Shown here one piece after another: positions 35,165 to 60,628 of a DNA stretch of 64,000 nucleotides. The stretch comes from Fennellomyces sp. T-0311 (lineage: Eukaryota > Mucoromycota > Mucoromycetes > Mucorales > Lichtheimiaceae), in NCBI GenBank assembly GCA_025266875.1, contig JALLLT010000057.1, forward strand, positions 1 to 64,000, read 5' to 3'. How positions within the stretch are numbered: the first letter of the stretch is position 1; every line of letters begins with the position of its first letter. The translations under genes were made by a program, and so were the position numbers. Under the pieces are notes generated by a model. That model had not been told where the DNA came from and did not search any database. It worked only from the letters and a program-made list of their open reading frames with translations.

Positions 35165-35207
35165 TTACCCCCTGCCAGGTTCAAACATCATTCTGTTAAG
35201 CGTATGC

Positions 35208-40592: not shown

Positions 40593-40633
40593 TCTTGATA
40601 GCTTGAGGTACTTGATAATTCAACGAAAAAAAA

Positions 40634-41034
40634 CGTGGTGAGAGAGTTATAAGAAATAGAATTGGTAACAAGAAATAGAATTCGTTGAGAATCTGAATAA
40701 TTGTATGTTCTTTATTATGGATGAACTCTCTCTCTTTTATATCTTTTACTGGAGATTCTAATATCCGTTCCTGGATAAATGATACTTGGTCGAGGACGTA
40801 TCGGGTTGCGTGTTCGTCTTATGTTTTACCGACGATGGCAGATATCGACTCCGTGTACTCTGTGATAGGTGCATGTCCTGTAGAACATCATTCAGCTTCC
40901 TTGAAACCGGTGTAAGGTAATACCGTTCATATCTTAGTCATCAATACTCTTCCAGAGTGTTCGTCTGATGGAATGTGCTAGAATGGATGTTTGACCGATC
41001 TCCATTGTGTGCATACATGTAGTGGTTCACCACA
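40634..41034 (-). mobile_element. 5' LTR of element A (hybrid after inversion)
   Basis: 401 bp; its first base is C instead of T. Its right flank CTGAC (41035-41039) is the complement of GTCAG found beside the solo A LTR at 46218-46222, not of the TTGTG beside the 3' LTR. This mismatch is the signature that its outer part was exchanged with the solo LTR during an inversion. Confidence 0.93.
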
Positions 41035-41729
41035 CTGACGAACAAAAGTATCAAGTCCTGGGAAATCTGTTTGTCAGACCAGCTCTCGAGTGGTTCAGGG
41101 AACTCAAGGTTGACAACCTGCCATTTTATTCCAATGACAACAACTGCTTTGTCAAAGTGTTTGTCAAAAAGTTTCTCACTGAAACACAGAAGACCGAACT
41201 ACAGGAAGCATTCTATGCAAGAGTGCAAGCACCTGGAGAGCTGGGAGAAGATTACATAACAGCTAAGATAGCGTTATGGAGACGCACAGCCCCTGTAAAT
41301 CAAGAATTGGGAACAGAACAAGTCATGTCAGTCAAAAGAGGACTACTACCACACAATGAATTCTATCTGGAGCTCAAAGCACCCAAAACCCTAGAAGAAT
41401 TACGGGCAGCAGTTCGCATGGCTGATCATTTCAATCAACAACCAAATGGCTTGCCAACACAGTTAGTGGGAATCAAAGATAACGGAATAGTCAACAAAGA
41501 CCACCAATTACCAAGGAACAACCTGGTAAATGTAGCAATCAAAACTCCATCACAGCTGGAAAAACGAGTGGATGACCTGGCAAACCAATTGGAAAAAATG
41601 GTGACACTGCAGCAAAAGTTGATTGAAAGCCAAACGCAGGTTATGCAAAACCGAGACATGGGAAAACCGCAGTCATCAATCATCTGTTACAACTGTGAGA
41701 AACCGGGACACATAGCAGCGTATTGCTGA
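41035..41729 (+). pseudogene. Element B gag, main part (in inverted segment)
   Basis: The frame begins in mid-protein (DEQKYQVLGNLFVRPALEWF) because its first exon part lies at 46346-46218. The gag fold follows (ARVQAPGELGEDYITAKIAL), then a coiled coil (LEKRVDDLANQLEKMVTLQQ) and a CCHC zinc knuckle (CYNCEKPGHIAAYC). A TGA at 41727-41729 stops the frame just after the knuckle; a second Cys/His box (CGICNSRQHAITYC) follows in the same frame, so the stop is likely a mutation. Confidence 0.88.
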
Positions 41730-42566
41730 CAACCATGTGGAATCTGCAACAGTAGACAACATGCTATCACTTATTGCCCAGAAAACCAGTACAACAGGTC
41801 GAGAAACATGGGCAGACTGGAACCAGAGCCACGAGGTCAAGAGTCAGGGGATCACCAGCAGGGTTTTCAGGAAGGGCGCCGCTAAGAACAGGAGCGAGCG
41901 CCCTTCAACAAGAAAAGGATCCTGTTCACACAGTTCAAACGATTTGGACTATCAATCAAAGTGGAGATCCAGCTGAAGTCACGCCAGAAGGAGAAGCCAT
42001 GGATGAAGACCAGGAAAAGAGTCAGCTTCCACCACTCAAGTTCGATTTGTTGAAAGCCATACAATTGGGTACACAGGAGGCGGAGGCCAACAAGAGAGAA
42101 AGGGTGGAGTTAGCAGCATGGACTCGAGCACAGGAAGTTCGACAGAAAAAATAGCCTCTTTGGAAAAAGCTAGAGCCAAGAAACAGGAATTACAACAAGC
42201 CGATGCGGTTGCTGTAGCCGATGGTCGGACAAAACCCTCAATTCTGGCACAAGCCAACAAAGGATTCCCTATGATGTTGAAGCCAGATGGATCAGTGGAT
42301 GAATTTGATTTATGGGAAGCAGTATGACAAACCAAAATGGAAGTCCCTCTACATCAACTGCTATTTTATTCGCCAGCCTTGTATCAAACTTTCATGGAAG
42401 GTATCAGCACAAAGGGAGTGAAGAAAAAGCAACCGGGAGACAAGAAAAAAGAGCTGGCAGATGGTGATCGACAAGCACGAGGCCATATCATCTCCACAGA
42501 CTGCGACCCATCAGTTCACCTGACCATACGGCAGGAGATTCACCACCAATACATCAACTTCAGGCA
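41730..42566 (+). pseudogene. Element B gag-pol linker, broken frames
   Basis: Three overlapping short frames (41774-42154, 42118-42327, 42337-42648) carry Glu/Lys/Gln-rich text such as DEDQEKSQLPPLKFDLLKAI and PMMLKPDGSVDEFDLWEAV. They read as one protein interrupted by stops (for example TAG at 42152-42154 and TGA at 42325-42327) and shifts. It links gag and protease. Confidence 0.6.
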
Positions 42567-43946
42567 GTGTATTTTGCGATTGGGGACACAATTATGGAGG
42601 CCATGCTTGATGGAGGTGCCACGGTCAGCATTATGCCATTCTGGATAGCAGAAGAAGCAGGGTTGACAGGCAAAATCACCCCCACAAATCAAGGATTCAG
42701 CTACAGTGGGAAGTTCGAGCAGAAAGTCGTGGGTCGGCTTACAGAGGTCACTTTAACCATGTCGGAAGAGTTGGATGTCATCCATTCATTCCTGATTGCG
42801 GAAGACCCAGATACACCATTTCTGCTAGGCCTAGATTTCATGGTGGGAGCTAAGGTCGTAACAGATCCGATACAAGAATGTATTACATTCTCGGTGGAAG
42901 AAGGTGGAAATGAAAGGGTGATCCGGATTCCTACACATGAGGGAAATGGAGTGCGCTTCAAGGAGGACAACAATGCGAACGACGTCATGACCATCACTCG
43001 ACAGGACATGGGGAACGATGCTCCGGCGTTGGTGACTCTGGTGGCGGACCTTACACTGGGTCCAAACGAAATCTCCATTTTGGACATCAATGAACTTTCA
43101 AGCGAAGAAAAAGTGTCCCAAGACACAGTGACCATCCTGGAGCCAGTCACTTCGGCACTACAAAAGGGAATTATAGTCATGCCAACCATTCGCCATGAAA
43201 CACTGAAGGACATGACAGCAGTGGGGAACATTAGTAACAAGGAGATCCGATTGAAGGCAGGAGAAACTATTGGAATGATGATGAACTCTGAAACGACATT
43301 GCTGGAATGGAAGAATGGAGGGAAGAAGGTCACCTCAAGCCATCACGAGGTTGTGGACTTCCTGGCCAATATGATCGTATATCCGGACCAATGCCGGTTG
43401 CCTTCACATTCGAGCAGTTTCATATTCATGCCGGAGGCGAGGGAAACAGGGAAAGCTGGAGTCATCCACCAAGTAAATATGGCTCAAGTGTCGCAGGGAG
43501 AGAAGAGCGACTTGAACGGATTTGACATAAATCCGGAATTGCCACAAGAAGACCAACTCCAAATATTAAGCATCTTGGAGAAACACTCGAAGGTTTTTGT
43601 AACCAAATTGGAAGAAGTAAATAAACTGCGAGTTGAACCGTACAAGATCCGTCTCAAACCAAATGCGATCCCTCATAAAACGGCTCTATATCCTATACCC
43701 CACGATGCAAGCATATGGTTAAAAGAGCATTTGAAAAAGCTCACAGAATTGGGCATGATTGAGCCTAGTACCAGTCCTTGGGCTGCGGGAACAGTACTAG
43801 TACCCTCTGATCGGGAAAAGCAAAAACCTCGAAGAAGAAAAGCAAAAATGAGGGCAGACCTACAAATCAAGAAGAAAACTAGACAAGGCCAAGTCTATGT
43901 GGTGAAGAAAGTCTGGACCGTAGAACAGGGAGAAAAAGAAGACTAG
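42567..43946 (+). pseudogene. Element B pol: protease and start of RT
   Basis: The protease is at the start (EAMLDGGATVSIMPFWIAEE, active-site DGGAT in place of the usual DTGA; FLLGLDFMVG further on). A long linker follows, then the first RT text (NAIPHKTALYPIPH, LTELGMIEPSTSPWAAGTVLV). The frame ends at TAG 43944-43946 and RT resumes at 43983 in another frame, so an indel lies near 43850-43980, in a Lys-rich, low-complexity zone. Confidence 0.88.
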
Positions 43947-43982
43947 GAGGATTGGGAAGAGAGAGACAAGGAAATCAGAAAT

Positions 43983-45817
43983 GTGGAGGGATATATGCAT
44001 CATGGAGCACCCGAACAAATCACACATATGAGCAAAGGCGAAATGGTCAAATACACCACAGCACTTCCCCAAGTTCAAGACAAGGAGCCATATCGACTAT
44101 GCATCAACTACATTCCATTAAATCGATGGGTCGTCGACGATAGTTACAGTTTGCCGAACATAAACTATTTGTTCACCCTCTTGGGAGAGGCCAAATATTA
44201 CTCGATTTTTGACGCGTATTGGGGATATTGGCAGCGCGAATTGGCCGTGGAAAGCAGAGAACTTACGGCATTCACCACTGTGGGTTTTGGCACTCATCAA
44301 TGGACTGTCCTTCCGATGGGAATGTCGTGCTCTCCCATGGCGTGGCAAAGATGCATGGATGAATGCTTTTCGGAGGTTCTATATGATGGGTTCTTCATGT
44401 ATGTGGATGATGGCTTAACATTCGGACCAAACTTGGCGAGGCATAATGAAACACTGGACAAAGTGTTGACCATAGCCGAAACAGTGGGATTGTCGCTTTC
44501 AAAACGCAAGTGCAAGTTTGGCTACCAGAGATTGAAGGCTCTCGGATACATCGTGGGGGACGAAGGGTTCGAAATGGATCGAGGAAAGGTGCAACGAATC
44601 CAAGACTGGCCAGTACCGAAAAACACTGGAGAGCTGCGATCATTTTATGGCCTGATACAGTACTATCGTAAATTTGTTCGAGATTTCTCTGGTGAAACTC
44701 GAGCATTGACGGCATTACTAAAGAAACATGTACGGTTCCATTGGAATGAAGAGCTACAACAATGCTTCGACCACTGCAAGGAGTTGTTATCAGGAGAACC
44801 TATTCTAGCCCACCTAGACTTCTCTAGACCTATGGTGTTATATACGGATGCATCACAGTACTCCATTTCAGGAATTCTAAGCCAAGCCGCAAAGGATAAC
44901 GACAAGGAATTGCATCTGATTTACTACGGAAGTCGATTAATGAACAAAGCCGAACAAGGATACAGTGTATACGAGAAAGAATTCCTGGCTGTTGTGTACT
45001 TCATCGAATTCTTCAAAATGTATTTGATGGGACATTACTTTATCGTGTACACGGATCACCAAGCACTGAAATATTTGTTGAACTTGAAGGGCGATGCATC
45101 CAGTCAGGTCCTGAGGTGGCAAATGGCACTCCAAAAGTATGACTTCGATATTTTTTACTGGCCAGGGAAACAGAACGCAAATGCAGATGCTTTATCACGC
45201 ATACCACCAAGGGCATATGACGAGGAGAAGGAAGTAAAGGAGGAAAACTGGATGGAAGGAAGTTCCTATTGGGTTTTCTTGATGCAACAAACCAATAACC
45301 GACAAGGCAAAGTTCATATGAGCACACAGAAACTGGGCATTAATCATGGATTTGGCGGAATATCGGCGGAAGAGTATGCGGATTTGGGAGTGTATTTAAC
45401 AGCCATGGAATTTCCTCCAGGACTTGATGGCCGGCAACGGCGAAAGTTGAGGAGCAAGGCATTAAATTATGAAATCCGTGAAGGCGAAATCTTTCAGCGA
45501 GCACACGGCAAACATGGACCTCGGAAACTAGTTGAAGCTACTGAAGTGCTGGACATCTTAAGGCGAAACCACGACCACTGGATGGCTGGACACCAAGGAG
45601 TGCAGAGAACGTTTGACAAGATAGCGAAAGATTATTACTGGCCAGGGTACTTCGAAGCAGTGCGCCGATATGTTATGTCCTGTAAAGTATGCCAGCAATT
45701 TGGCCCAAAGAATCCACCAGTTCCCTTGCATCCGTACAAAGCTCCAGATGGGGGCCCGTTCAGTGAAATTATGTTGGACTTTTTCTCATTGCCGGTAGCG
45801 ACGGAGAGTGGACACAA
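43983..45817 (+). pseudogene. Element B pol: RT, RNase H, integrase N half
   Basis: RT text EPYRLCINYIPLNRW, SIFDAYWGYWQ, then the catalytic FMYVDDGLTFG. RNase H begins PMVLYTDASQYSISGIL and ends NADALSRIPP. The integrase zinc finger is HWMAGHQGVQRTF with CKVCQQF, and the core starts EIMLDFFSLPVATESG. The open frame appears to go on to 45911, but everything after 45817 is solo LTR sequence. The other half of the integrase is at 34364-33498 on the opposite strand. Confidence 0.92.
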
Positions 45818-46217
45818 TGTGGTGAACCACTACATGTATGGACACAATGGAGATCGGTTAAACATCCATTCTAGCACATTCCATCAGACGAACACTCTGG
45901 AAGAGTACTGATGACTAAGATATGAACGGTATTACCTTACACCGGTTTCAAGGAAGCTGAATGATGTTCTACAGGACATGCACCTATCACAGAGTACACG
46001 GAGTCGATATCTGCCATCGTCGGTAAAACATAAGACGAACACGCAACCCGATACGTCCTCGACCAAGTATCATTTATCCAGGAACGGATATTAGAATCTC
46101 CAGTAAAAGATATAAAAGAGAGAGAGTTCATCCATAATAAAGGACATACAATTATTCAGATTCTCAACGAATTCTATTCTTGTTACCTATTCTATCTCTA
46201 ATAACTCTCTCACCACA
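45818..46217 (+). mobile_element. Solo LTR of family A, opposite orientation (400 bp)
   Basis: It reads TGTGGTGAACC to CTCTCACCACA, inverted relative to the two LTRs of element A. Left flank CACAA pairs with TTGTG at 34360; right flank GTCAG pairs with CTGAC at 41035. Neither flank matches the other side of this LTR, as expected if it took part in an inversion. Confidence 0.93.
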
Positions 46218-46440
46218 GTCAGTGATCCATCCCCCCAATATGCACAGCCTTTGGAAATCATCAATAAATGACGCCGGATCTTCGAGTCTCCCCTCTCCGG
46301 TGAACTGGCTTGGTATCGAGGTCACTTGATGCGATTGATTAAACATTTAATGAGGTACAAATGAAATTTGGTGTCCAGGCCCGGGTCCTTGAGTTACTTG
46401 CAAGTTACCCAACAATCGACGCGAAAATGGAAAGAAATTT
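46218..46440 (-). pseudogene. Element B gag start and leader
   Basis: On the minus strand ATG 46346 begins MFNQSHQVTSIPSQFTGEG and reads to FIDDFQRLCILGGWITD at the duplicated GTCAG. The next residues (EQKYQVLG) are found at 41040 onward, so the two parts join in frame. 46347-46440 is 5' leader, cut at 46441 by the palindromic element. Confidence 0.85.
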
Positions 46441-47475
46441 ACTACTGGATTTTTCCTCTCTCTTTGCGGTGATTGGGTAGAACTTTTGCGGGTTCAAGTA
46501 AGATCGCTTTGCGGACAAAAATAAACCTTTTGCGCATGTGCTGCTGCCTTTTGCGGCTGTGAATGTGCATTTGCGGCTATGGTGATAGTTCTTTGCGTGC
46601 TTGCACTTTGCGTTTACAAATTGCGGTTATAGTTTGCGGGCGTGATTAAGCTTCCTTTGCGGATTTATTCATTGCGCTTTCACATTGCGGCTAATGCTTG
46701 CGGACTGGTCAAGCTTCTTTTGCGACTAATGTTTGCGCACTAATCATGCTTCCTTTGCGGATATTATTTGCGGGCTTATACATTGCGTCTACTTCATTGC
46801 TTCTAATGCACGCAATATGGTGATTCCGGTCTCCGTACCTACATTTTAAAAAGAAATCATATGATATATTTTATATTGTGTGCCATTGTGAAGGTGCATA
46901 GATACTGCCTAAGCATATTGATTATCATGGATAGATAATGTATTTGGGCGCATAAGAGACCTCAGAATGTGTGTATGGAAAGCGGTTATTGCTCAGAGAC
47001 AGTTTACGTCATGGCAGCTGGATATAGAAAAAGCACATGTATAGCGGTTCCGGAAACTAAACAGACGATTATATATGAGCTTAAAATGTGTGTATGTGGG
47101 ACGATCAGAATATACAGCAAATTCACTTGATCATTACGGGCGTGTCTAAGTAGAGAGCATGGACAAAGATTGCAAATTAGGTGACTTGCCAAATGAGCGT
47201 AGATTCTGTGCACGCTAAGAGATTATAAAAATGGATCATCGAAAGGATCGTAAAAGTGTATATGCGTAGAAAGATTATGAAACATATACAAGCTACAGAT
47301 TACTAATGAAGAGCACAGACTGTGGGAAAATTGGGCGGTTATATCGAGTGGACACAGGAAAGTGCATGTAATATGCTCATAAAGAGCGTATATTGTATAG
47401 AATATATAAATGGGCAGAGAAAAAAGATATTACTAAAGTAATATAAAAGAGAAATAATGATGGGTGAAAGGAAGA
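46441..47475. repeat. Left outer arm, with phased TTGCG array
   Basis: About 1.03 kb, near-identical in inverse to 59015-60053. Between 46464 and 46788 there are 19 TTGCG motifs on one strand (12 are TTGCGG), starting at 46464, 46486, 46509, 46530, 46551, 46571, 46593, 46608, 46621 and so on. Gaps are 20-23 bp or 13-15 bp only. The rest (46800-47475) is AT-rich without genes. Confidence 0.93.
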
Positions 47476-47480
47476 GGGTA

Positions 47481-48050
47481 CTATTCGGTGACATTTTTAC
47501 TAGCGTTCATTTTCGTTAACAATTTCAAAGCGATGTCTTGGTTTACTATGGACAGATTTGACTTCGCTTTACGAGTTTTCCGTTTTTTCTCCACCTTCGG
47601 AAACAAATGCTTGTACGTGTTGACTAGCTTTCTTGCCGATGCTTTCGGCATCCCAACAGTTGCTCCTGCCTCTTCCATTGAGGTAATGCTGGGATCATTG
47701 AAGTAAGCATCAAGGACTTTCTCAATTTCATCGTCAGTGTATGTCCTGCTAGTGCCACTGCTTCGCTTCGCTCTAGTCTTTCTTGTCTTCGGGACTTGGA
47801 CCTTCTTCGTCTTTGCTGGCTGTTGTGCCTGCATTGACGATTGTTGTTGCTGCTGCTCTTCTGCTTGGGTTAGAGGCTCCTTGACGTGTGTCATCTGTTC
47901 TTGGGCATTTCCGTCAACAGCCATCGGGTCATATTGTTGCTGCCCTTGTCCGCCACGAGGATACTCGTCATAATCCGCTAGTTCGTCATCCACGTCGCTG
48001 CTATTGATTTTCATGTGGTCAATTGAGCTTCTATCGATATAATGGGACAT
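47481..48050 (-). CDS. Helix-turn-helix protein, transposase-N-terminus-like
   Basis: ATG at 48048-48050 (MSHYIDRSSIDHMKINSSDV) gives 189 residues. Acidic and Tyr/Gln-rich N-terminus, Gln run, Lys/Arg-rich linker (KTRKTRAKRSSGTSR), then an HTH-like domain (YTDDEIEKVLDAYFNDPSIT, EEAGATVGMPKASARKLVNT). It ends with a short basic segment. Layout resembles the first third of the transposase at 57336 (Lys/Pro linker, then YTMYQRVEFIKCL...INERTAQDWAKKY), but there is no catalytic domain. It points outward, mirror to the transposase. It may be a repressor or end-binding factor; that is inference. Confidence 0.72.
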   Translation of the reverse strand: MSHYIDRSSIDHMKINSSDVDDELADYDEYPRGGQGQQQYDPMAVDGNAQEQMTHVKEPLTQAEEQQQQQSSMQAQQPAKTKKVQVPKTRKTRAKRSSGTSRTYTDDEIEKVLDAYFNDPSITSMEEAGATVGMPKASARKLVNTYKHLFPKVEKKRKTRKAKSNLSIVNQDIALKLLTKMNASKNVTE

Positions 48051-48150
48051 TTTGTGGGTAGTAAGAATAATGCGCACAACGAGACACTTTCTGTGCGTAT
48101 TTATACCTTTAACTAATAGTAAGCTTTGATAAAACACGTGCACCGCATGC

Positions 48151-48783
48151 AAATACTATCGAAGTAGACCGTCAATATCATATCATAAACATGATCTTAT
48201 TATTATAATTGGAAAATATGCAAACGTGTAAAGATAATAGCTATCTATATGGTATTGACAAACTGAAAAATATCATGTGCAAAATACACAGCAGGTAGTA
48301 GCTATCATACCAGTGCAAGTAAACTAAGTATAGTAAAAGAGCATGAGAGATGTTTGTAATGTGATGCTTGTAGAATGTGAATAAGTCAAATGATTATAGG
48401 AAAAGATGATAAAAAAACGTGCAAAATCTGCACATATACTGGGGCATGTTACTAGAAAATAGTAAAGGAGGATGAATAATGTTTACGGTATCTGATTATC
48501 TTACGAGAGCAGGTTAACTAGGCGAAAACAATCGTGTAATATGGTGCTTACAGAATATAGGTACGTTTCAATAAACTTAAGAGAGCTTATAAATATGATG
48601 GCGAATCAGAATAGCTAAGTTGCGTGATAATATGAATAAAGCACCATTCTTACACGGAATTACCATTTCGTAACAAATGACATGGTTACACAAAGGCAAT
48701 ATGATAGTTAGTTATATTATCACCTCACTGGAAAAGCAATTAACTACATTTCTTTTCCCCGAATCCAACTACATACAGATACA
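48151..48783. other. Non-coding part of left cassette
   Basis: AT-rich, no gene. From about 48300 it shows weak copies of the arm repeat (for example GATTATAGGAAAAGATGATA near 48392). Confidence 0.4.
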
Positions 48784-49256
48784 ATGTACTTCTATGAAGA
48801 TCCAGATCTCGTATTTCAATCAGAAGTCCCATCCACCTATGAATTTTATCGACAGCCATCACATCAGTTAGTCGACTATCCTGTTTTTATTCGACTGGCA
48901 AACATCTGTGTCCGTTGCTTCATCACGGGAAAGGACTGTCATGGATTCAGAGAATACTTCAATGGTAATCCAGGAGTCTGTGGCCAATGTAGACATGACG
49001 GCTGGGCTATATATTGTAAATATCCGGAATTGTATCTTGCGAATCCAGACGTTCCCCCATGGCATATTCGCTATATGAGCCGTGTATCAAGAGGCCCTTA
49101 TATCATAACCCTTATGTTGGATATGATTTCTGTGGACATCGAATTCGTTACCTGGCAAACGGCGATATCAAAGAAGATGACAGGGATATGCTGCCAATTC
49201 CACCTAGAGACCTGGAAAGTATGCATCATTACAACTTTATACAGCACCATATCTAG
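48784..49256 (+). pseudogene. Cys-rich ORF in left cassette (frameshifted?)
   Basis: ATG 48784 (MYFYEDPDLVFQSEVPSTYE) leads to a Cys-rich part (ICVRCFITGKDCHGF, GVCGQCRHDGWAIYC). After PDVPP at about 49055 the plausible text moves to another frame (MAYSLYEPCIKRPLYHNPYV, GHRIRYLANGDIKEDDRDML) and ends at 49256. Paired CxxC motifs suggest zinc binding. No family recognised. The shift may be a mutation or an unseen small intron. It is absent from the right arm. Confidence 0.45.
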
Positions 49257-50980
49257 CATTGCTAAACAGTGATTACTCTATAGTTATTAAGGAGATAGAT
49301 AGTATTATAAGTAACCGTAAACGTAGATAACAATTACACTATATCTAGCGTAGCAAAATCTATCGTTGTATAATAATAAATTATGCATGCAGCAAAAAAA
49401 GATATAGGATGCGTTTATGCAGCACAGTATATAATTATCATGCTGGCGCACGTTAGATAATATTACAGGAAATTACCAAAAACACATGTACCCATGACGC
49501 TTACAAACGTAAGCAAGTCAATCGACTATAGAAAACGATTATAGAAAACGTGTAAGAATCATGTTCATGGAGTACAGATATGTCGTATGATAATAGTTAA
49601 GGCACATGGATAATGTGCACATTATATGATCATTGTATCGTTTTAAATTGGTTGAGTACGATAGAAAAACATGATAAATGTATAAGCATAATACCTACAG
49701 AAGTTAGATGAGCTGAACGATTGTAAAAAGATTATAGAGAACGTGCAAGGATGGCGCTCATAACTATGTGCTCATTGCACAGTCATAACAAAAGCGCACC
49801 GAAGCCGTACGCGATACAAAATTATGATCTTAATACCATAATATGTTAACTAAGAAGCATGCCAAGGGAGCGCCCAAAACGTGCAAATATGATGCTTACA
49901 CAATATAGGCCCATTATCGATAATAAAAAAATATTATGGAAAGCATGCAAGAATACAAGCAAGTGTTTATCGAGTATGCAGAAGTCGCATGATGATATTA
50001 AAAGCGCATGAATAATGTCACAACACTTTATTGTCGTATCGAAAGAGATTCATGGAATACGACAACAAACCATGAAAAACGTGTAAGCATAATGCTTATA
50101 GAAAATAGATCGAGTTAAGCAATTATACAAGAATATTATAGCAGAGGATTATAGAGAAAGTGCAAGGATTTGTTCATAACGAATGGAAGCATTGCGCGAT
50201 TATAGAAAAAGAGCACAGAAGACATATACAATAAGGGATTATAATCTTAATATTACTGGAGTAGACAAATTAAGCATGACAAGAAAGTACGAAAACCGAG
50301 TAAGCCGATGTTTACACAACGTAGGGCACGTTATCGGTAATAAGGAAAAAAGATTATTATGAACTTGTAAGAATAGTGTTATTAGGTTGTAGATATGTTG
50401 CATGGTATCAGGAAAGGACATGAGTAATCTACACAACACATGATTATCCCAACGGAACGTATTTATTTATCATGACAGAAGTTATTATAAAATATGCGAG
50501 TATAATGTTTACAGAAGCCGTAAAAGTTAAGTGACTACAGGAAAAGATTATAGAAAACGTGCAAGTAAGCTGTTCCTATAGTAAGGTAAGTCGCATGATT
50601 ATATTAACAGCGCATGGATAGCGTATGCGGTACATGATTAGCTGAACGGAACAGATTAATTAAGCATGACAGGAAAGCATAATAACCGTGTCAGTATAAT
50701 ACTCACGGAAACTAGAGAAGTTAAGCGTTTTTGGAAAAGATTGTAGAAAATGTGTAAGAAAGCTGTTCATATAGTAAGTTAAAAAACATGATTATAGTAA
50801 CGAAGTATGAAAAATGTATACAACATATGGTTATCGGACCGGAACAGATTAATTGAGCATGACAGGAAAGCATGAAAGAGGTGTAGGTATAATGCCTATA
50901 ATAGGGTGGTCAATTCAAGAGATATTTGGAAAGGATTATGGAGAACGTGTAAGAACAATGCTTATATAGTATACGTAAAT
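49257..50980. repeat. Left inner arm, about 195-bp degenerate repeats
   Basis: No genes. A core of the form GATTATAGAAAACGTG(T/C)AAG recurs near 49541, 49730, 50150, 50548, 50739 and 50936, i.e. at one or two multiples of about 190-210 bp. A second phrase (ATAATGCTTACAGAA...AGTTAAG) precedes it in many units. From about 49536 to 50890 this arm is matched inverted by 51425-51947 plus 56117-56940. Confidence 0.8.
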
Positions 50981-51424
50981 CGCATGACAATTTTAACAGT
51001 ACATAAAAAATAAATATAGCATAAATTATATTAAAAGAGTCTGTGTAATGTTTCACAGGAAAGCCATTTTTCAGTTATTTGTGCTCCCTAGCTATGTCCC
51101 ACTCTCCTGTTCTATTTTTTGTATTCCTTACTGCATTTCATTAATTTATTCTGTACTATGCTTCTCTAATCATTTCTGTTCTATGATTGGCTGCTATATC
51201 CTTATTTTATAACCAGCTTATATATTTCTACTATGCATCTTTGACGTATCCAGATAAATATGTGGGCTGTTAATAACTGTGCTGCAATTATACTTTCAGG
51301 GCCTTTCTTCTATAATCTGCCTGCTACACGACCATAATAACCATTTATATGCTTACATTCTGTAATCTTCTAATAGAATTATTTACTTTGTTAACAGTTT
51401 ATACTAGCCAATTGATGTGCACGC
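50981..51424. other. Centre (spacer) of the palindrome
   Basis: About 0.5 kb that does not pair with itself well; AT-rich, no gene. The predicted symmetry axis, after removing the DIRS insert, is close to 51160. Confidence 0.6.
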
Positions 51425-51947
51425 TTTCTGTGCTTTCCTGTCATGCTCAATTAATCTGTTCCGGTCCGATAACCATATGTTGTATACATTGTTCATACTT
51501 CGTTACTATAATCATGTTTTTTAACTTACTATATGAACAGCTTTCTTACACATTTTCTACAATCTTTTTCCAAAAACGCTTAACTTCTCTAGTTTCCGTG
51601 AGTATTATACTGACACGGTTATTATGCTTTCCTGTCATGCTTAATTAATCTGTTCCGTTCAGCTAATCATGTACCGCATACGCTATCCATGCGCTGTTAA
51701 TATAATCATGCGACTTACCTTACTATAGGAACAGCTTACTTGCACGTTTTCTATAATCTTTTCCTGTAGTCACTTAACTTTTACGGCTTCTGTAAACATT
51801 ATACTCGCATATTTTATAATAACTTCTGTCATGATAAATAAATACGTTCCGTTGGGATAATCATGTGTTGTGTAGATTACTCATGTCCTTTCCTGATACC
51901 ATGCAACATATCTACAACCTAATAACACTATTCTTACAAGTTCATAA
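51425..51947. repeat. Right inner arm, first part
   Basis: Inverted counterpart of about 50370-50890, nearly identical (for example GTCATGCTTAATTAATCTG). It is cut at 51947 by the DIRS element; the arm resumes at 56117. Confidence 0.9.
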
Positions 51948-51989
51948 TGTTCCTTTAGGTCGAGACCGAAGGTCGATGACCTCATCACA

Positions 51990-52095
51990 TTATTTGAGAA
52001 GAGTGGATCCAGGGATTGTGTTACCATCTTTCTTAATTTATTCTCGAGAGTTATAAAAAAAAATATGTGATACAATAATTATAAACTATCATCTT
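51990..52095. repeat. DIRS left terminal inverted repeat
   Basis: Pairs with 56003-56103, including GTTACCATCTTTCTTAATTT and the AAAAAAAAATATGTG stretch, with minor length differences in the A/T run. Confidence 0.93.
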
Positions 52096-52141
52096 GAGAG
52101 AGAGAGCGATATATATATATATATAAGGGAGGGTGGGTGGG

Positions 52142-52244
52142 ACAATCCCTGGATCCACTCTTCTCAAATAATGTGATGAGGACATCGACCTTCAGTCTCG
52201 ACCTAAAGGAACATTATTCTTCGAGAGGTGGATCCAGGGATTGT
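52142..52244. repeat. DIRS internal complementary region
   Basis: The first 71 bases are the complement of the left end (from 51948); the bases after the join at 52212/52213 (GGAACA|TTATTC) are the complement of the right end (to 56116). So it spans the joined ends, as in the circular-intermediate model for DIRS elements. The join independently fixes both element boundaries. Confidence 0.93.
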
Positions 52245-53460
52245 GGATCCAGAGATTCTTGACGTGCTTGTGTCTCTCCAAGTGCCAAGTGCGTAAAGTC
52301 TGTACGGGTTTCCCGGGCAATGCGATAGAATTTTTCATAGATGTCGTTCGATGACCAATTACCATGGGTGACAATGTCATCAACACTAGCGCCCGCTTGT
52401 GCTGCTCGCGTGGCGCCTACTGCCCGAGCCTTTGGGGTTCGTCTGCCTGGTTGTTGTGGTATCAACTCCATGACGGCGCGAATAAGCTTGCTAATCCTTT
52501 GTGAGCCAATGGGTTGCTTGTTATCCTGAACTTTCCGGACAAGGTGGTTGAGGGTGATTGACGACAGTGTGGGGTGTTGGCGAATGCATGGTTCTTGGGC
52601 AAAACGCCTACAATATGAGCGGAATGCGGCCACCGGACAGCACAGAGGATCGTCATGTCGCTTGATTGTAACAGTGCAAACTTGTTTTTTACCCTTGCGT
52701 AGTTGTTTCGGAGCGACAACGTGAAGTTCAACCTCGTCTTGTTCTGGTGATACCTTGCATTGATTGAGATCGATACGGTGAATATCCGAAGGTCGTAGGA
52801 AACCGCACACGCCCAGTAGCCAGCATAACTTCTTGGTGAGGTCGGCGATGGCCAAATCCTTGTTAGGCCCCAGAGTGCGGAAATGATTGAGTACTGGTGT
52901 GATGTCAACATTGGTTTGCCGCGACGGGTGAAGTGTAGTCGCATTGAGAGATTTGAAAAATGATTGATATATCCATGACTGGATCACGACCTCCCTATCC
53001 TCGAACAAATTCAGAATAGCTGACCGATATGCCTCGATTGTCGATGTTGCCCATTTCTGTTCATTTCGTCCATACGCCAAAAAGTTGACCAGGTTTGTCG
53101 CTGAAGATTCAAGAGGATCGCGATTGTGTTGATGGCACCATGTTTTGTATTGAATTTGAACGTGCTTGTATCCTGTCTCCGTACGGATTGCGTCTGGGTG
53201 AAGGATCAACTGTATAGTGTCGGCACTTGCACCTTCTAATTGAAGTCGTCGAAGCTTATGTTCCAAGCCGTCATCTTCCAGTGTGGATTCTTGTCTAGCA
53301 CGCTTTTGTCCTGTCCAGGGGCTGGGAGTACTTGTGACCGTGGAACCTTGCGCGGTCGAGGTTGGGATAATCTGTGGATTGTTGGGAACCAAATTGCCGA
53401 CGGCCACTATGGGGTGATGATTGTCGCTGAAACTTGCTCTGTTTACAATTTGCGAAGGCA
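52214..53460 (-). CDS. DIRS tyrosine recombinase
   Basis: The minus-strand frame that stays open from 55969 to 52214 codes for recombinase only in its last 400 codons or so. It shows LCWLLGVCGFLRPSDIHRID (box 1 Arg), LDDD-like acidic linker text, then KARAVGATRAAQAGASVDDI and HGNWSSNDIYEKFYR (box 2 with the likely Tyr). The usual HxxR appears as KAR, so the His position is uncertain. The last residues are encoded by the internal complementary region. It would integrate the circular DNA. How the ORF is started was not determined. Confidence 0.87.
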
Positions 53461-55176
53461 TGCTTGGATCAGATTCCATGGTGGACAAAGGTATACCCGC
53501 CCCAAATTGGTCCATGGGATGGAGAACGCATCGGTTGCCATCGCATTGGGATCCCATTTCCATGATACGTAGCTCCGTAGTTGGTTGTTGAGGTGGGTTG
53601 CGAAGAGATCCACATGATGTGGTCCCCACTGTTGATTCAATTTGTTGAAGAATGGTCTGGCTATCGTCCATTCGATTTGTCGAGTCAATTGGCGCGATGG
53701 TGCATCGGCTGGGTTGAAAGCTGAAGGTACATACGTCAGTTGTAGACGTGTGTCGCTCGTTAGACAATAGTTCCAGATACGATGAGAAAGTTTCATGAGA
53801 GTCTCTGAGCGTGTACCTCTGAAGTTGTTGATGTATGCAATGGTGGTCGTATTGTCGCAATAAATCCGGAGGGATCGTCCCCGCAATGAAGGTTGATGGA
53901 TAGCTATCCATATGACTTGGAGTTCTTTCCAATTGATGTGTTGGTGAATCTGCTGTGGCGTCCATTGTCCCTTCCAAATGTTGTTCTCCGCCACTATGCC
54001 CCATCCCTCGTTGGAGGCATCCGTAAAAAGTTCCCTCTCTGGGACAGTTGGTAGGAATCCGAGACCATTCCATATCTGAAGGCTGCGACGCCACCACTCC
54101 AGTTCCTGTCTCGCTGCAGTGGGAATTGTTATGAACGATGACCATGTTTTCCTGTGATGCAGTTGTTGGTTCTTGAGTTGGAGTAGATGACGAGTCATCA
54201 ACCTCGCCGGAAACACTGCCATCGTTAGGGATTGGGCTTTGCCAATGAATGCTGCGATATGGCGGACTGTGCTTTGTGGTCGATGAAGAAGGCGAGCTGC
54301 TTCGCGCCGTAGATCCTGGATCTTGGTGCGAGGAACCCGAAGTTGCATCGTGGTAGTATCGATGTCGAAGCCCAGATGTTTGATCTGTTGCGAGGGGGTT
54401 AGACTGGATTTGGATTGCTTGACGAGGAATCCAAGTTCCTTCAGTTTGGACTTTACCTGACGTGTATGGATTGTCGAGGTATGGTAGTCCGGAGCTGCGA
54501 TGATCAAGTCGTCCAGATAACCCGAAATCCGTATGCCCCTTCGACGTGCCCAGGTCAGGCAAGGTTTCACCACTGACTGAAAAACGAACGGGCTTAAGGA
54601 CATTCCGAATGGGAGCACCTCGAACTGCATGAGCTTTTTGTTCTTGCTCCATACGAATTGCAAGTATTTTTGTGAAGAGGGATGGATTTTCACGTGCATG
54701 AAGGCGTCTGCCAAATCGATGCTCGTGAGGTAGTCGTCCTTGTTGATCATGTGACACACCGTTTTGATGGTTTCCATCTTGAATGGGCGACGTGGTAAAA
54801 ATTGATTGAGTGGTTTGAGGTTGAGAACGGGCCGTCGGTCCCCTGTCTTCTTGGGAATAGTGAAAAGGTGTGATCGAAACCCTGGGGTATTGGACGGTAC
54901 TTCTTTGATTGCCTTCTTGCGTAGTAGTTCTGAAACCTCGTAGTCGATCAAGTGCTGATCTTCTACTGAATGCTGAGGAGCAGAGCTGTGAGTGGTGAGT
55001 GGTGGTGGTTTGGTGAAGGGGATCTCGTACCCCTTGCGGATGATCTGACGAATCCACCTGTTGTCGGTCAGAGCCATCCATTGTTTGTAGAAACAAGAAA
55101 GTCGCCCCCCTACGACCTCTGGTCGCCCTTTTTCCCTTTGTCGCGGGGGCCCGAGTGAAAATCCTTGCGTTGCCAA
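53443..55176 (-). CDS. DIRS reverse transcriptase/RNase H
   Basis: 577-codon frame with RT text KKTGDRRPVLNLKPLNQFLP, SIDLADAFMHVKI, VLPFGMSLSPFVFQ and the catalytic GYLDDLIIAAP, then RNase H (REFFTDASNEGWGIVAEN; IYCDNTTTIAYIN) and the typical end SAFNPADAPSR. It overlaps the gag-like ORF by 67 bp and the recombinase by a few bases, in different frames. Intact. Confidence 0.95.
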   Translation of the reverse strand: MATQGFSLGPPRQREKGRPEVVGGRLSCFYKQWMALTDNRWIRQIIRKGYEIPFTKPPPLTTHSSAPQHSVEDQHLIDYEVSELLRKKAIKEVPSNTPGFRSHLFTIPKKTGDRRPVLNLKPLNQFLPRRPFKMETIKTVCHMINKDDYLTSIDLADAFMHVKIHPSSQKYLQFVWSKNKKLMQFEVLPFGMSLSPFVFQSVVKPCLTWARRRGIRISGYLDDLIIAAPDYHTSTIHTRQVKSKLKELGFLVKQSKSSLTPSQQIKHLGFDIDTTTMQLRVPRTKIQDLRREAARLLHRPQSTVRHIAAFIGKAQSLTMAVFPARLMTRHLLQLKNQQLHHRKTWSSFITIPTAARQELEWWRRSLQIWNGLGFLPTVPERELFTDASNEGWGIVAENNIWKGQWTPQQIHQHINWKELQVIWIAIHQPSLRGRSLRIYCDNTTTIAYINNFRGTRSETLMKLSHRIWNYCLTSDTRLQLTYVPSAFNPADAPSRQLTRQIEWTIARPFFNKLNQQWGPHHVDLFATHLNNQLRSYVSWKWDPNAMATDAFSIPWTNLGRVYLCPPWNLIQACLRKL

Positions 55177-55964
55177 TTGTAGCCTTTCTGGGTACGGCTA
55201 TCGTGGTCATTTGTGTTCTGATGACTCTCATCCTCTGACTTTGAGGTGTTACGGCTGCGGGAATACGCTTTTCCCGATCTGTTGCGTGGGTGTCGTTGTC
55301 CAGTTTGTTGCACCGCTTGTGCCAGTTTGACATATTCCACCATGTCTTTTGGCTCCAAAAGGGGGGATGTGGTCGAAGATCCCAGTCGAGGTGCCTGTCC
55401 TCTAATGTTTGCGGCCATGAACATGTTGTCGACTCTGAGCTGGGTGATAAATGAGGCTGTGTCCACCAATAATTCGTGTACCACATTGGCAAAATCGATA
55501 GCCTGTTGTTGGTGGGGTCCATTTGATTGTAGGGCCTTATGCACGAAGTTGTCCAAAGGGCGGGTAATGCCTGACAAGCGAAACTGAATTTCGGATAACT
55601 GGTGATCTGTGCGTTTAGCCGACTTGTTGACATTGACATTGTTGAGGACTGGAGGGTTGTAATTTCTAGCTGTGTTACGAGGAAAATCAGCCAAGAAACG
55701 ACGTTGAGCAAGCTCAGGTAGAGGATGGCGAAAGAAATCCTTTTCCCATCCAGGCAGAGCCTCACTGAAGGCCGGATACGGGGTGAATTCCGTATCTGGA
55801 GGTCTTGCTTCAACGTTAGGGTCGTCCGATCGAGTATGTGTTTCCAGTGCTTCGATTCTGCGGACGAGGGCCAAAGCCCATTGAGGTGGTGGACCCTCTG
55901 GTTGGCCGGCCGTTGATTGTTGTGTTCTTGCTTGTTGTTGTTGACCATCGAGTTCGTTTTGCAT
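55110..55964 (-). CDS. DIRS gag-like ORF
   Basis: ATG 55964 (MQNELDGQQQQARTQQSTAG), 284 residues: Gln-rich start, a helical core (LVHELLVDTASFITQLRVDN-like text), a Lys/Arg/Ser-rich tail (SGKAYSRSRNTSKSEDESHQ) and no zinc knuckle. Position before RT and basic tail fit a DIRS gag. The family match is by context only. Confidence 0.8.
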   Translation of the reverse strand: MQNELDGQQQQARTQQSTAGQPEGPPPQWALALVRRIEALETHTRSDDPNVEARPPDTEFTPYPAFSEALPGWEKDFFRHPLPELAQRRFLADFPRNTARNYNPPVLNNVNVNKSAKRTDHQLSEIQFRLSGITRPLDNFVHKALQSNGPHQQQAIDFANVVHELLVDTASFITQLRVDNMFMAANIRGQAPRLGSSTTSPLLEPKDMVEYVKLAQAVQQTGQRHPRNRSGKAYSRSRNTSKSEDESHQNTNDHDSRTQKGYNWQRKDFHSGPRDKGKKGDQRS

Positions 55965-56002
55965 CTCAAACTCGACGGTGATATACCAGGAGCGAGTCTC
56001 TC

Positions 56003-56103
56003 GAGAGAAAAGATGATAGTTTATAATTATTGTATCACATATTTTTTTTTATAACTCTCGAGAATAAATTAAGAAAGATGGTAACACAATCCCTGGATCC
56101 ACC
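56003..56103. repeat. DIRS right terminal inverted repeat
   Basis: Inverted partner of 51990-52095. Outside it the last bases (CTCTCGAAGAATAA) match only the internal complementary region. Confidence 0.93.
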
Positions 56104-56116
56104 TCTCGAAGAATAA

Positions 56117-57248
56117 TAATCTTTTTTCCTTATTACCGATAACGTGCCCTACGTTGTGTAAACATCGGCTTACTCGGTTTTCGTACTTTCTTGTCATGCT
56201 TAATTTGTCTACTCCAGTAATATTAAGATTATAATCCCTTATTGTATATGTCTTCTGTGCTCTTTTTCTATAATCGCGCAATGCTTCCATTCGTTATGAA
56301 CAAATCCTTGCACTTTCTCTATAATCCTCTGCTATAATATTCTTGTATAATTGCTTAACTCGATCTATTTTCTATAAGCATTATGCTTACACGTTTTTCA
56401 TGGTTTGTTGTCGTATTCCATGAATCTCTTTCGATACGACAATAAAGTGTTGTGACATTATTCATGCGCTTTTAATATCATCATGCGACTTCTGCATACT
56501 CGATAAACACTTGCTTGTATTCTTGCATGCTTTCCATAATATTTTTTTATTATCGATAATGGGCCTATATTGTGTAAGCATCATATTTGCACGTTTTGGG
56601 CGCTCCCTTGGCATGCTTCTTAGTTAACATATTATGGTATTAAGATCATAATTTTGTATCGCGTACGGCTTCGGTGCGCTTTTGTTATGACTGTGCAATG
56701 AGCACATAGTTATGAGCGCCATCCTTGCACGTTCTCTATAATCTTTTTACAATCGTTCAGCTCATCTAACTTCTGTAGGTATTATGCTTATACATTTATC
56801 ATGTTTTTCTATCGTACTCAATCAATTTAAAACGATACAATGATCATATAATGTGCACATTATCCATGTGCCTTAACTATTATCATACGACATATCTGTA
56901 CTCCATGAACATGATTCTTACACGTTTTCTATAATCGCTTTCTACGATCGACAGACTTATGTATCTACTTTCTGTAAGCATCATGTGTACATAATTACCA
57001 TATCTCCTCCATGCTTGTTTAATATAGTCTAGTATAATAATAGTATTCTATGCATCTTTTCTATATGGCCATCTAGCAGAGACACTGTATGCATGTATAT
57101 ATAATCTTTTTAGTTAAAAATAAGGAAGTACCTGCTTCTATGCTCTATAACCGTGCTCAACTTTTGTACTTCATAATCGAGAACTGTACACGACTTTAAT
57201 AAACTATCGTATAACCATAAAAACCCATCCATAACATGTTTTTTTTTT
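56117..57248. repeat. Right inner arm (second part) and cassette edge
   Basis: 56117 to about 56940 is the near-identical inverse of about 49536-50365. From 56940 to 57248 similarity to the left side falls to repeat-family level. No genes; a T run lies at 57239-57250. Confidence 0.85.
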
Positions 57249-57335
57249 TTGAATAACTCATATATAATGGGCTTGTCTCAATCACTTTGCAAACGATCAA
57301 TACCAGAATCTCTTACTATAACCAATTTTCAAATC

Positions 57336-58990
57336 ATGTCTCAGAATTTTACATTCAAGAATACCTTCGGAGATCTCCCAACGAACACAGCAGATAACGA
57401 GGCGAGAAACAAGGAGCTGTCATTCATATATGAGCGTAACTGCCTTGCAAACCTTATTGAGGCAGAGGAGCACTTTTATATCCCGGAACCTGAAGATCCC
57501 GGTCTTGTGGAACAGGATCCAAATGAAGAACCGGAGTCCCAAGGTGCAAGAACTATCCAGTCGTCAGATGTCCAGCAAGCTCCAGATACGGCAGCATTAG
57601 CTTTGAGTGAATGGAATGCTGGATCAGATAATGGTGGAATACGGCAGCTAATCACTTTGAGTGTAAGTTTCGATATTTATTCAACTATAATACGTAAGCA
57701 ATTCAATTTTACTGATAAAATGTTACGTAAAGGATTATACATTGAATGGGATGGAAATTAATCAGCAGACGTCTGCTTCAGCTTCGACTACAACTCGTGC
57801 AAAGCCCAAGCCCAAGCCCAAGAACGAGAAGAAGGCAGTTCCACGGAGAAAGTACACGATGTACCAAAGAGTCGAATTCATCAAGTGCTTGATCGACACT
57901 GCTGGCAAAAGTGCTGCTGCATGTGGTCGAGCCCAGGGAATTAACGAAAGGACTGCCCAAGACTGGGCAAAAAAGTATGCAGAAGATCCAGAGAAATGAA
58001 TTCCGCGGCTTGGCAATATGACGAAAACTCCTGTTTCGGGCACTCAAGTTCTTTTCAAGGAGCATTCCTCGTTTCTGGTGGCTTTGTACGATATTCGACC
58101 TGAGACAACCCTAAACGAGGCGAGAGCAGCATTATACTCTGTTTTTCCGGATATTGCCATCACTCTTAGTGGGCTCCAAAAGCACTTGGTGAACAAATGC
58201 ACCCTTACGATGAAAAAGTTGGAGAAGTTACCTGCTGCACGCATTTCAGACCGTATCATCGATCTTCGCTACGAAATTGTGAAAGGATGGAAGGATGACC
58301 AGGAATTTTTTTCGATGATTGTGTATTTCTTGACGAAGCGGGTTCAACATGCATATCAAGCGGAATTTTGGTCGATCTGTCAAAGGCCAGCCTGCCAAAA
58401 CTGCTGTTCCAACCCAAAGAGGCGTTTCGATCACCATACTCGGAGCGATGACGAAAGAAGGTGTTATCAGTTTAACACTGCGAAAACCAGAGGCTGTTGC
58501 TGCACGCAAGAAAAGAAAGAATGACGACAAGAGTGCAACCAATGTGAATGGACGAGTAGGAACCCGCACCGAGCATTTTCTTTTGTTCCTCGGTTTCGTT
58601 ATGGATGTTCTTGACAGTCATGGCCTTGGTGGAAAGTATCTCATCATGGACAATGCACCCATACACAAGAAAGTCGAAATCAAAAATCTCATTCACAGCC
58701 GAGGATACAAGTGCGTGCACCTTCCTCCCTATACTCCAGAGTTAAATCCCATCGAATTGCTGTGGTCTAAGCTCAAAGCAGGTATGTTAGTTTTCGAATT
58801 AAATACAAATATTCAATATACTCACTAACTGAAAACAGGTGTCCGAAGAAGCGAGCTTACAGTCGATGACAAGCTGACGACAAGAATCGAAGAATCCGCC
58901 CGGTTGATTACCAGAGATGACTGTGTAGGATGGATACGTCATTCCAAAGGTTACTTTGAAGGCTGCTTAAACAAGAAGAGGATATTGTGA
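57336..58990 (+). pseudogene. DD34E (Tc1/IS630-type) transposase, decayed
   Basis: ATG 57336 (MSQNFTFKNTFGDLPTNTAD; an upstream Met at 57267 is possible). Exon 1 ends at GTAAGT 57663; exon 2 starts after CAG near 57768. HTH region (YTMYQRVEFIKCL, INERTAQDWAKKY), then TGA at 57997-57999 in KYAEDPEK*IPRLGN, a likely CGA-to-TGA change. Catalytic text: first Asp FLDEAG, reachable only by two shifts near 58305 (a T7 run) and 58345; second Asp LIMDNAPIHKK; Glu in PELNPIELLW, 34 residues between the last two. A final intron (GTATGT to ACAG, about 58782-58839) precedes the C-terminus KKRIL. Not functional as read. Confidence 0.88.
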
Positions 58991-59014
58991 TCCTTATTAC
59001 TACCTTCCTCTTTC

Positions 59015-60053
59015 GTCCTCTCTTCCTTCACCCATCATTATTTCTCTTTTATATTACTTTAGTCATATCTTTTTTCTCTGCCCATTTATATATTCTATAC
59101 AATATACGCTCTTTATGAGCATATTACATGCACTTTCTTGTGTCCACTCGATATAACCGCCCAATTTTCCCACAGTCTGTGCTCTTCATTAGTAATCTGT
59201 AGCTTGTATATGTTTCATAATCTTTCTACGCATATACACTTTTACGATCCTTTCGATGATCCATTTTTATAATCTCTTAGCGTGCACAGAATCTACGCTC
59301 ATTTGGCAAGTCACCTAATTTGCAATCTTTGTCCATGCTCTCTACTTAGACACGCCCGTAATGATCAAGTGAATTGCTGTATATTCTGATCGTCCCACAT
59401 ACACACATTTTAAGCTCATATATAATCGTCTGTTTAGTTTCCGGAACCGCTATACATGTGCTTTTTCTATATCCAGCTGCCATGACGTAAACTGTCTCTG
59501 AGCAATAACCGCTTTCCATACACACATTCTGAGGTCTCTTATGCGCCCAAATACATTATCTATCCATGATAATCAATATGCTAAGGCAGTATCTATGCAC
59601 CTTCACAATGGCACACAATATAAAATATATCATATGATTTCTTTTTAAAATGTAGGTACGGAGACCGGAATCACCATATTGCGTGCATTAGAAGCAATGA
59701 AGTAGACGCAATGTATAAGCCCGCAAATAATATCCGCAAAGGAAGCATGATTAGTGCGCAAACATTAGTCGCAAAAGAAGCTTGACCAGTCCGCAAGCAT
59801 TAGCCGCAATGTGAAAGCGCAATGAATAAATCCGCAAAGGAAGCTTAATCACGCCCGCAAACTATAACCGCAATTTGTAAACGCAAAGTGCAAGCACGCA
59901 AAGAACTATCACCATAGCCGCAAATGCACATTCACAGCCGCAAAAGGCAGCAGCACATGCGCAAAAGGTTTATTTTTGTCCGCAAAGCGATCTTACTTGA
60001 ACCCGCAAAAGTTCTACCCAATCACCGCAAAGAGAGAGGAAAAATCCAGTAGT
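59015..60053. repeat. Right outer arm with phased CGCAA array
   Basis: Inverse of 46441-47475, nearly identical, with the motif array as CCGCAA/CGCAA between about 59706 and 60030. No genes. Confidence 0.93.
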
Positions 60054-60077
60054 TGTTCTTCTTGTTGTATGTGCTGA

Positions 60078-60095
60078 CGCCCAGCTTCTCCACCA
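60078..60095 (-). promoter_or_regulatory. Primer-binding site of element B
   Basis: On the minus strand, directly after the LTR end (TTTATTACA), the text TGGTGGAGAAGCTGGG starts with TGG, the complement of a tRNA CCA end. The tRNA was not identified. Confidence 0.7.
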
Positions 60096-60628
60096 TGTAA
60101 TAAAGTCCGGGAACTTGTGACAGCGACAGGATCTAGAAGGAGAGACCCTGCCATGTGAGCAAAGAAGAAGTACTATCTAAATCAAGAATATGGAAAATAC
60201 CTTTGTTGCTATCTGAAGAAGCTCGGTAGGCAAACGCTCTATCGAGGAAAAATCGGTATACACCAACCGCTGAAGAATACAAATTTAAAAGAGGATGTGT
60301 AAATCAAGAACACCGATACACGTGTACAGAATGTCACTATCGAATTTACAACTGATAAGTTTTCATACACTAACAATGTCTCAAATGAACACTCACAGGA
60401 GGGCTCTCTTCTATCCTCCTCTGGGAAGAAAAGCTCTCTTTTATTTTTATCTGTTCACAAGACCTTATATAAGGGCACAAGTGTGTGACACCACTCACTA
60501 CTAAAGGAACTATTGTAATATGTTGTGAATACATAGTGCGTGATGATACAGCTGTGTGGTTCCCCCATTCGTATATAACGTAATTATGCTCGTTCATGGT
60601 CTGAGTTCGTTTCTCTCCCTTCATAACA
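60096..60628 (-). mobile_element. 5' LTR of element B (533 bp, uninterrupted)
   Basis: Plus-strand reading TGTAATAAAG to TTCATAACA. Followed by CCAG (60629-60632), equal to the bases before the other LTR at 32545-32548. It contains the empty site for the family C insertion. Confidence 0.95.

Follow-up and report, generated by a model that had tools for sequence, protein, structure and literature searches.

Ordinary fungal Tc1-like transposons are 1–3 kb long, hold a single gene and have short ends, and elements of the Foldback type carry very long inverted ends built up from short repeats and mostly lack a Tc1 transposase. The palindromes of willow sex chromosomes reportedly consist of inverted arms kept alike by arm-to-arm conversion (PMC7023750). 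Here we describe family A, an element of the fungus Fennellomyces sp. T-0311 (Mucorales), from the copy in a stretch of 64,000 nucleotides (the window; C136:1-64000, so that the window copy is also the C136 copy). Family A is probably a recently mobile, multi-gene DDE transposon of the IS630/Tc1 group with an inverted central array that is kept by gene conversion and a loop that is flipped by crossing-over between the arms. It shares a DDE_3 transposase, TA ends and the DD34E signature with ordinary fungal Tc1-like elements but departs from their small, single-gene, short-ended form in size, gene number and ends, having four open reading frames (ORFs), 1.03-kb arms and a length of ~9.45 kb. 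With regard to the Foldback type, its outer arms hold a short-repeat array but it encodes a DDE_3 transposase; and whereas the willow palindromes are chromosomal, the palindrome of family A lies inside a mobile element.

Larger relatives are known, and we draw on excerpts of each source cited here. Sardine and Thon of Paramecium are Tc1/mariner elements with up to 4 ORFs, Sardine being ~6.7 kb long (PMC3464196), and they resemble family A in combining an IS630/Tc1 DDE transposase, several ORFs and palindromic DNA inside a DNA transposon (PMC3464196). Their palindromes, however, belong to the repeats at their termini (425 and ~700 bp; PMC3464196), whereas that of family A is central and built as an array of ~195-bp units; the outer arms of family A carry a directional TTGCG array in place of palindromic terminal repeats. 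Sardine and Thon also encode a tyrosine recombinase (PMC3464196), of which there is none among the family-A ORFs searched in Pfam, a phage-integrase-like Pfam match belonging to the DIRS-type retrotransposon inserted in the window copy. Their transposases are DD35E (PMC3464196), against the DD34E of family A, a type named for fungi (PMC4054914). The TBE elements of Oxytricha are likewise Tc1/mariner elements with a DDE transposase and two other ORFs, one of them zinc-finger (PMC4724952), but they have 22-kD and 57-kD zinc-finger/kinase ORFs, and no central palindrome is described in the excerpted account (PMC4724952). KolobokP, a DDD/E element of eukaryotes, also has a second gene and long repeats, between which recombination has been proposed (PMC9587614); it differs in that its long terminal repeats are direct, its superfamily is Kolobok and it encodes a His-Me endonuclease (PMC9587614). 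We found no description of an element such as family A in the open-access literature searched. If our reading is right, family A represents a DNA transposon with its own gene-converting palindrome, partly corrected against mutational decay while immobile.

Self-comparison of the window confirmed the long inverted outer and inner arms on a single axis that a sequence-only reading of this DNA had claimed. The outer arms (46441-47476 and 59020-60053) are inverted and agree at 99.5% across 1036 columns, a symmetry well outside what chance would give (reported BLAST E of 0), and the inner arms (49486-50872 against 51431-51956 plus 56113-56992) keep one common axis across the DIRS insert that breaks the right one. 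While the symmetry stood, the details of the arms did not: the true borders are 46443-60051, each inner arm has at its outer end ~54 bp of diverged, side-specific edge, and the arms are arrays of degenerate ~195-bp repeats, eight units each by an iterated profile, the units being roughly two-thirds identical to each other. From left to right, the element consists of an outer arm, a helix-turn-helix (HTH) gene, a Cys-rich ORF, the inverted 8+8-unit array around the loop, ORF3, the transposase and the second outer arm (Table 1). The two cassette segments between the arms (47477-49485, 2009 bp; 56993-59019, 2027 bp) are of near-equal length and, in line with the proposal that they are unrelated, gave no mutual match at E 1e-10 over more than 60 bp, a comparison that includes no finer homology test. 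The right-hand cassette holds the predicted DD34E transposase, with 34 residues from D to E in the window copy and D, D and E aligned in C174. Its match to PF13358 (DDE_3; at E 7.8e-22 with the frame of C174 and at E 5.9e-20 with the piece from the window) is the only one among the four frames to reach the Pfam cut-off, and this catalytic domain with its D, D and E places the element in IS630/Tc1 (Tc1/mariner).

The element is not unique to the window. A genome search with the outer arm, as the sequence-only reading had proposed, returned 17 matches, several being pieces of one arm, and a search with the inner arm returned 16, internal repeats counted. In C149 (55132-80326) and C174 the two cassettes and the two inner arms follow one another as in the window copy, though the inserts are different ones, and one outer arm of C174 is missing its outermost ~350 bp; C64 is a left half only, reaching near the contig end, and further fragments lie in C57, C8, C121 and C149:2010-3441. 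Judged by their flanks, these represent four distinct insertion sites (C136, C149/C174, C64 and C57). The copies with the same layout, together with a second family, B, with related genes and units, support the earlier proposal of a giant Tc1-related element type. Comparison of ends across copies fixed them at TA: the element proper starts and finishes with TA, the border reads TA followed by CTGGATTTTTCC on the left and right sides alike, and TA stands at 9/9 family-A ends read (both of C136 and seven others) as well as at both ends of C171, a family-B copy.

The position of the window copy hints at its age. It sits ~45 bp within the right long terminal repeat (LTR; 60096-60628) of a putative retrotransposon, whose PBS-like (primer-binding-site-like) sequence TGGTGGAGAAGC adjoins that LTR; if this host is read correctly, the copy arrived later than the retrotransposon, hence recently. 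The left LTR (32549-33480) holds a nested solo LTR; the two LTRs agree at 401/401 and 136/137 positions, and it is this single difference among 538 compared positions that makes the move recent.

The inner arms carry the clearest record of what happened after insertion. Counted past column 55 of the alignment, the two arms of a copy differ at 2/1337 positions in C136, 2/1337 in C174 and 4/1342 in C149, whereas comparisons between these three copies give 19–27 differences; for the partial arm of C64 against the others the figure is 16–30 of about 1047. At all 28 informative sites past column 54 both arms of a copy agree. Columns 0–54 behave otherwise: 14 of their 15 sites split cleanly by side, the remaining one being shared by just two right arms, those of C174 and C149. 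A tree pairs the inner arms of each copy, with support of 100 for C174, 98 for C149 and 87 for C136. C149 and C174 share flanking sequence (4.9 kb including flank aligns at 97.4%; the flank is 97% identical over 3.9 kb) and so derive from one insertion rather than being independent copies, which means that the homogenising of their inner arms happened in place. The most telling single event is a 393-bp solo LTR that occupies the mirror position of both arms of C149, identical at 393/393 positions and with the same junctions, and is absent from both arms of C174, from both arms of C136 and from the single C64 arm. It is 98–99% identical to window repeats 2108-2495, 32950-33342 and 34744-35136, and its presence in both mirror arms makes gene conversion of a fungal palindrome open to direct test. 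The outer arms serve as a control, since left and right do not pair in C149 and C174. Taken together, these comparisons strongly support gene conversion in place as what keeps the inner arms near-identical. The earlier suggestion of symmetry kept by conversion is thus well borne out for the inner arms and weakly for the outer ones.

The loop between the inner arms varies in orientation. Both cassette anchors and the loop lie on the plus strand in C149 and C136; in C174 both anchors lie on the minus strand and the loop on the plus strand. The loop is therefore reversed in one of three loop-holding copies, and relative to that copy's own segmental duplicate, C149. If the assembly is right, the 558-bp loop appears to flip, which agrees in part with the idea in the sequence-only reading that the element can flip its parts. 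A flip of the whole interior is only faintly suggested by the fragment C149:2010-3441, where the flank that adjoins the transposase side in C149 adjoins an arm and then 68 bp of the HTH side, as a swap through the outer arms might leave it; a mosaic test on the outer arms was weak (49 sites, permutation p 0.014).

In the account that we favour, the element would insert by cut and paste into TA sites, as the transposase domain and TA ends suggest, with the transposase, and possibly the HTH protein too, binding the TTGCG arrays of the outer arms. While the element sits in the chromosome, gene conversion between the two ~1.33-kb arms keeps them near-identical, as the comparison of copies shows, and crossing-over between them would turn the loop, as it may have done in one copy, assembly permitting. 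The array units would most likely bind an element protein that controls expression or pairing.

Flipping could also be a function in its own right, the loop carrying a promoter or signal such that its reversal changes which cassette is expressed. The orientation of the loop does vary among copies in which the cassettes are fixed, and the HTH and transposase genes point away from each other in reading direction. Yet the loop was given neither a gene nor a promoter (no scan for promoters was made), all five family-B copies that retain loop sequence (as two pieces in C139, as 86 bp in C177) keep one orientation relative to the HTH gene, and flipping may be a by-product of arm recombination; we consider such an invertible switch unlikely.

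Distinctly unlikely, in our view, is an artefact in which the assembler copied or misplaced an arm and so created both a false symmetry and a false loop reversal. Long inverted arms are difficult to assemble, and a reversed loop is the error expected if reads fell short of the 1.33-kb arm. Against this, the arms within a copy are imperfect duplicates, with 2–4 substitutions and, in C136, 14 gap columns; the DIRS insert lies in just one arm; 42 positions separate the two outer arms of C149; and the layout is found again on several contigs and, in an altered version, in family B.

The arms might instead be alike because each copy transposed recently from a master with identical arms, with no conversion in place. 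The C136 insertion is indeed recent, and the likeness of the C136 outer arms could still be explained in this way. C149 and C174 contradict it: they descend from one insertion, yet their inner arms differ at 19–21 sites between the copies against 2–4 within, and the mirror solo LTR of C149 is missing from C174. As a general explanation we therefore hold a young palindrome to be very improbable. That two separate Tc1-like elements came to lie head to head by chance, as two gene cassettes in mirror places might suggest, is scarcely credible, as TA ends are seen at the outer borders alone, the other copies keep the layout instead of resolving into two independently inserted halves, and inner and outer arms have no match in the self-comparison.

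Several observations weigh against a recently mobile element with converting arms and a flipping loop. A genome search with the joined flanks found no empty target site, only the window flanks and LTR copies matching, and the left flank has no other match in the genome; for these reasons the TA duplication is presumed from the ends. The window transposase is frame-shifted, so that this copy was either moved by another copy or lost its frame after the move. Only one reversed loop was seen, and inverted arms are a classic site of misorientation in assemblies. The arms of family B have diverged (90.5% identical in C171), which, with its constant loop orientation, implies that conversion and flipping are not traits of the wider group. 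Finally, the AlphaFold model of the Cys protein was unusable (mean pLDDT, a per-residue confidence score, 36.9), and that of the HTH protein was weak (59.6).

The outer arms differ from the inner ones in composition and history. The distal 345 bp of the left outer arm holds 19 TTGCG motifs on a single strand, 13–23 bp apart, whereas elsewhere in the window TTGCG or CGCAA occurs 71 times on both strands in 50,391 bp. Counts per arm are 19 in C64 and C57, 14 in the left arms of C149 and C174, and 7 in the right arm of C149. Such directional terminal repeats look like protein-binding arrays. Left and right outer arms differ at 42 positions in C149 and at 17, over a shorter stretch, in C174. Those of C136 pair, with 5 private states in common and 8 differing positions. 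In the outer-arm tree, the right arms of C149 and C174 group weakly (support 61; 92 with C149a), no grouping of left arms has support, and left and right pair in neither C149 nor C174. The case for gene conversion of the outer arms is weak. C-to-T changes are numerous in the right arm of C149 and in C149a, mostly at CG (18/29 and 27/45). The excess of C-to-T and G-to-A changes in these two is a mutation or methylation signature on some copies. An outer arm with its flank is also duplicated among C149 79192-82188, C149 105-3144 and C8 28322-30811.

The central array has counterparts beyond the arms. A profile of the family-A arm units, searched in the window and in selected contig stretches, matched the family-B palindrome (best E 1e-14), was confined to the element within the window and found no match in a smaller element on C57. 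A dyad-like motif of these units (3–4 mismatches) recurs at 48470 and, close upstream of where the HTH gene starts, at 48061; the 50,391 bp outside the element contain none with up to 4 mismatches. Because the motif was read from the aligned units, finding it enriched in the arms is partly circular. Its position upstream of the HTH gene suggests that the array units most likely bind a protein of the element.

The left cassette contains an HTH-like ORF, as the sequence-only reading had it, together with the Cys-rich ORF named there, which is frame-shifted in the window. The HTH-like protein has no match in Pfam. It is 51% identical to its family-B relative over 163 codons, with a ratio of non-synonymous to synonymous differences per site (pN/pS) of 0.33 (pN 0.30, pS 0.91); the corresponding figure for the Cys proteins is 0.44 (pN 0.29, pS 0.66), synonymous sites being near saturation in both comparisons. 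The Cys-rich ORF has the cysteine pattern C-x2-C-x6-C-x13-C-x2-C-x8-C, a spacing that we take to match that of fungal Zn2Cys6 clusters. In both families this spacing alone agrees with Zn2Cys6, the intact P0080 having no Pfam match at E 1. A homologue search for the Cys and HTH proteins gave one match each, both in Fennellomyces, though the search needed shared 5-residue words and distant relatives may escape it. ORF3 has three matches in the genome, all in the family-A copies C136, C149 and C174. With the transposase as query, a PDB sequence search gave 0 matches at E 0.01.

Family B shows the same plan in altered form. The transposase of C171 is 31% identical to that of family A over the matched part, and C171 has a related HTH gene and a Cys gene with the identical set of six cysteines. 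Its central inverted array, like that of family A, consists of units that match the family-A unit profile. Other copies or parts lie in C4, C156, C177 and C139. Nested in the C171 element is a Harbinger-like element, named by eye (L051 3689-6686; C171 40689-43686), with a nuclease-like ORF, a second ORF and ~100-bp inverted ends.

At the mirror end from its transposase, C171 carries a second transposase-like gene, whose product is 25% identical to the transposase (BLASTP, E 5e-27) and has its second D replaced by E and its catalytic E by I. A genome search with this second-type protein gave 92 matches. Typing hits by the higher-scoring query yielded 31 second-type loci (C4:914 is probably a family-B transposase piece), 19 of them stop-free over 243–275 residues. 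An active-type gene lies within 6 kb of 15/31; in 12 of these pairs, at spacings of 3.2–5.8 kb, the genes face away from each other (one also faces another), and in three they read in the same direction. In the three second-type genes readable at these two residues, the second D is E, E and E, and the catalytic E is I, Y and R; the first D is kept in the three in which it is readable. Six active-type genes all keep the E, and the second D is changed in three, so that loss at the second D alone is not diagnostic. The second-type genes have pN/pS of 0.44–0.50, against 0.26 for an active pair. A smaller C57 element has the order second-type gene, HTH-like gene, 174-bp tandem repeat and transposase; its HTH-like protein scores 67 against that of family A, above 300 shuffles (maximum 61), and 47 against that of family B, within the shuffles (maximum 53). 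We dropped the notion that the HTH gene is a remnant of a second transposase, as family B has both genes.

The outward-facing pairs of active-type and second-type genes in the related families make a two-headed ancestor plausible. Both ends of such an ancestor would have carried an outward-facing transposase gene, and one of the two would later have lost its catalytic function or disappeared. The tail-to-tail fusion of two elements proposed by the sequence-only reading did not emerge for family A itself. A possible but doubtful extension is that a whole class of two-headed IS630/Tc1 elements arose from a mirror pair of outward transposase genes, one partner becoming conserved but non-catalytic or being replaced by accessory DNA-binding genes, with the central array, in family A, as a self-correcting, loop-flipping recombinational switch. 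Counting against a two-headed ancestry, within 12 kb 13/22 face away and 9/31 have no neighbour, the 6-kb cut was chosen after the list had been viewed, and several of the 12 facing-away loci are, by their like spacings, copies of one another, leaving perhaps four families. The second-type genes nevertheless raise the question whether some IS630/Tc1 elements use an unlike transposase pair, one of them non-catalytic.

Table 1. Features of the family-A copy in the window and, where C171 is given, of family B.
Feature	Coordinates	Strand	Remarks
Family-A window copy	46443-60051		13,609 bp with DIRS insert, ~9.45 kb without
Left outer arm (terminal inverted repeat)	46443..47476	+	begins TACTGGATTTTTCC
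HTH-like protein gene	47484..48050	-	189 aa from Met, frame open to 48155; outward-reading
Two diverged ~195-bp units	48325..48645	+	HTH/Cys intergenic region
Cys-rich ORF	48784..49269	+	inward-reading; frame-shifted in window copy, intact as P0080 in C64
Central array, left half	49459..51009	+	8 units of ~195 bp; near-identical arm proper ~49541-50872
Loop between inner arms	50873..51430	+	558 bp
Central array, right half, inner part	51322..51956	-	inverted units
DIRS-type retrotransposon	51957..56112 (about)	-	4156 bp; reverse transcriptase and integrase-like matches; splits right inner arm
Central array, right half, outer part	56113..57023	-	inverted units
ORF3, acidic 148-aa frame	57315..57758	+	outward-reading
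DD34E transposase (DDE_3)	57751..58825	+	outward-reading; frame-shifted in window, 375-aa open frame in C174
Right outer arm, mirror of left	59020..60051	-	19 TTGCG on minus strand; ends in TA
Probable host of insertion: LTR retrotransposon with nested inserts	32549..60628	-	frames judged by eye
Family-B element	C171 37736-48636		191-bp ends (98.4%), TA borders
Second transposase-like gene	C171 (L053) 47137-48382		outward-reading, at mirror end

The DIRS insert is foreign to the element, its name being drawn from its layout. The left cassette of C64 holds a 2-kb insert with long inverted halves and a 9-bp repeat at its borders (L043 5932-7919), and the C149:3441 fragment breaks near the point of this insert, with similar sequence further on. 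Rfam gave 0 matches at gathering scores. Solo-LTR-like repeats of ~375–405 bp occur in the window at 2098-2503, 32946-33349, 34365-35140, 40635-41037 and 45815-46216. Possible further families lie at C172:74379-81200 and C96:21283-31056, each with an HTH-like match on the minus strand and a transposase match on the plus strand.

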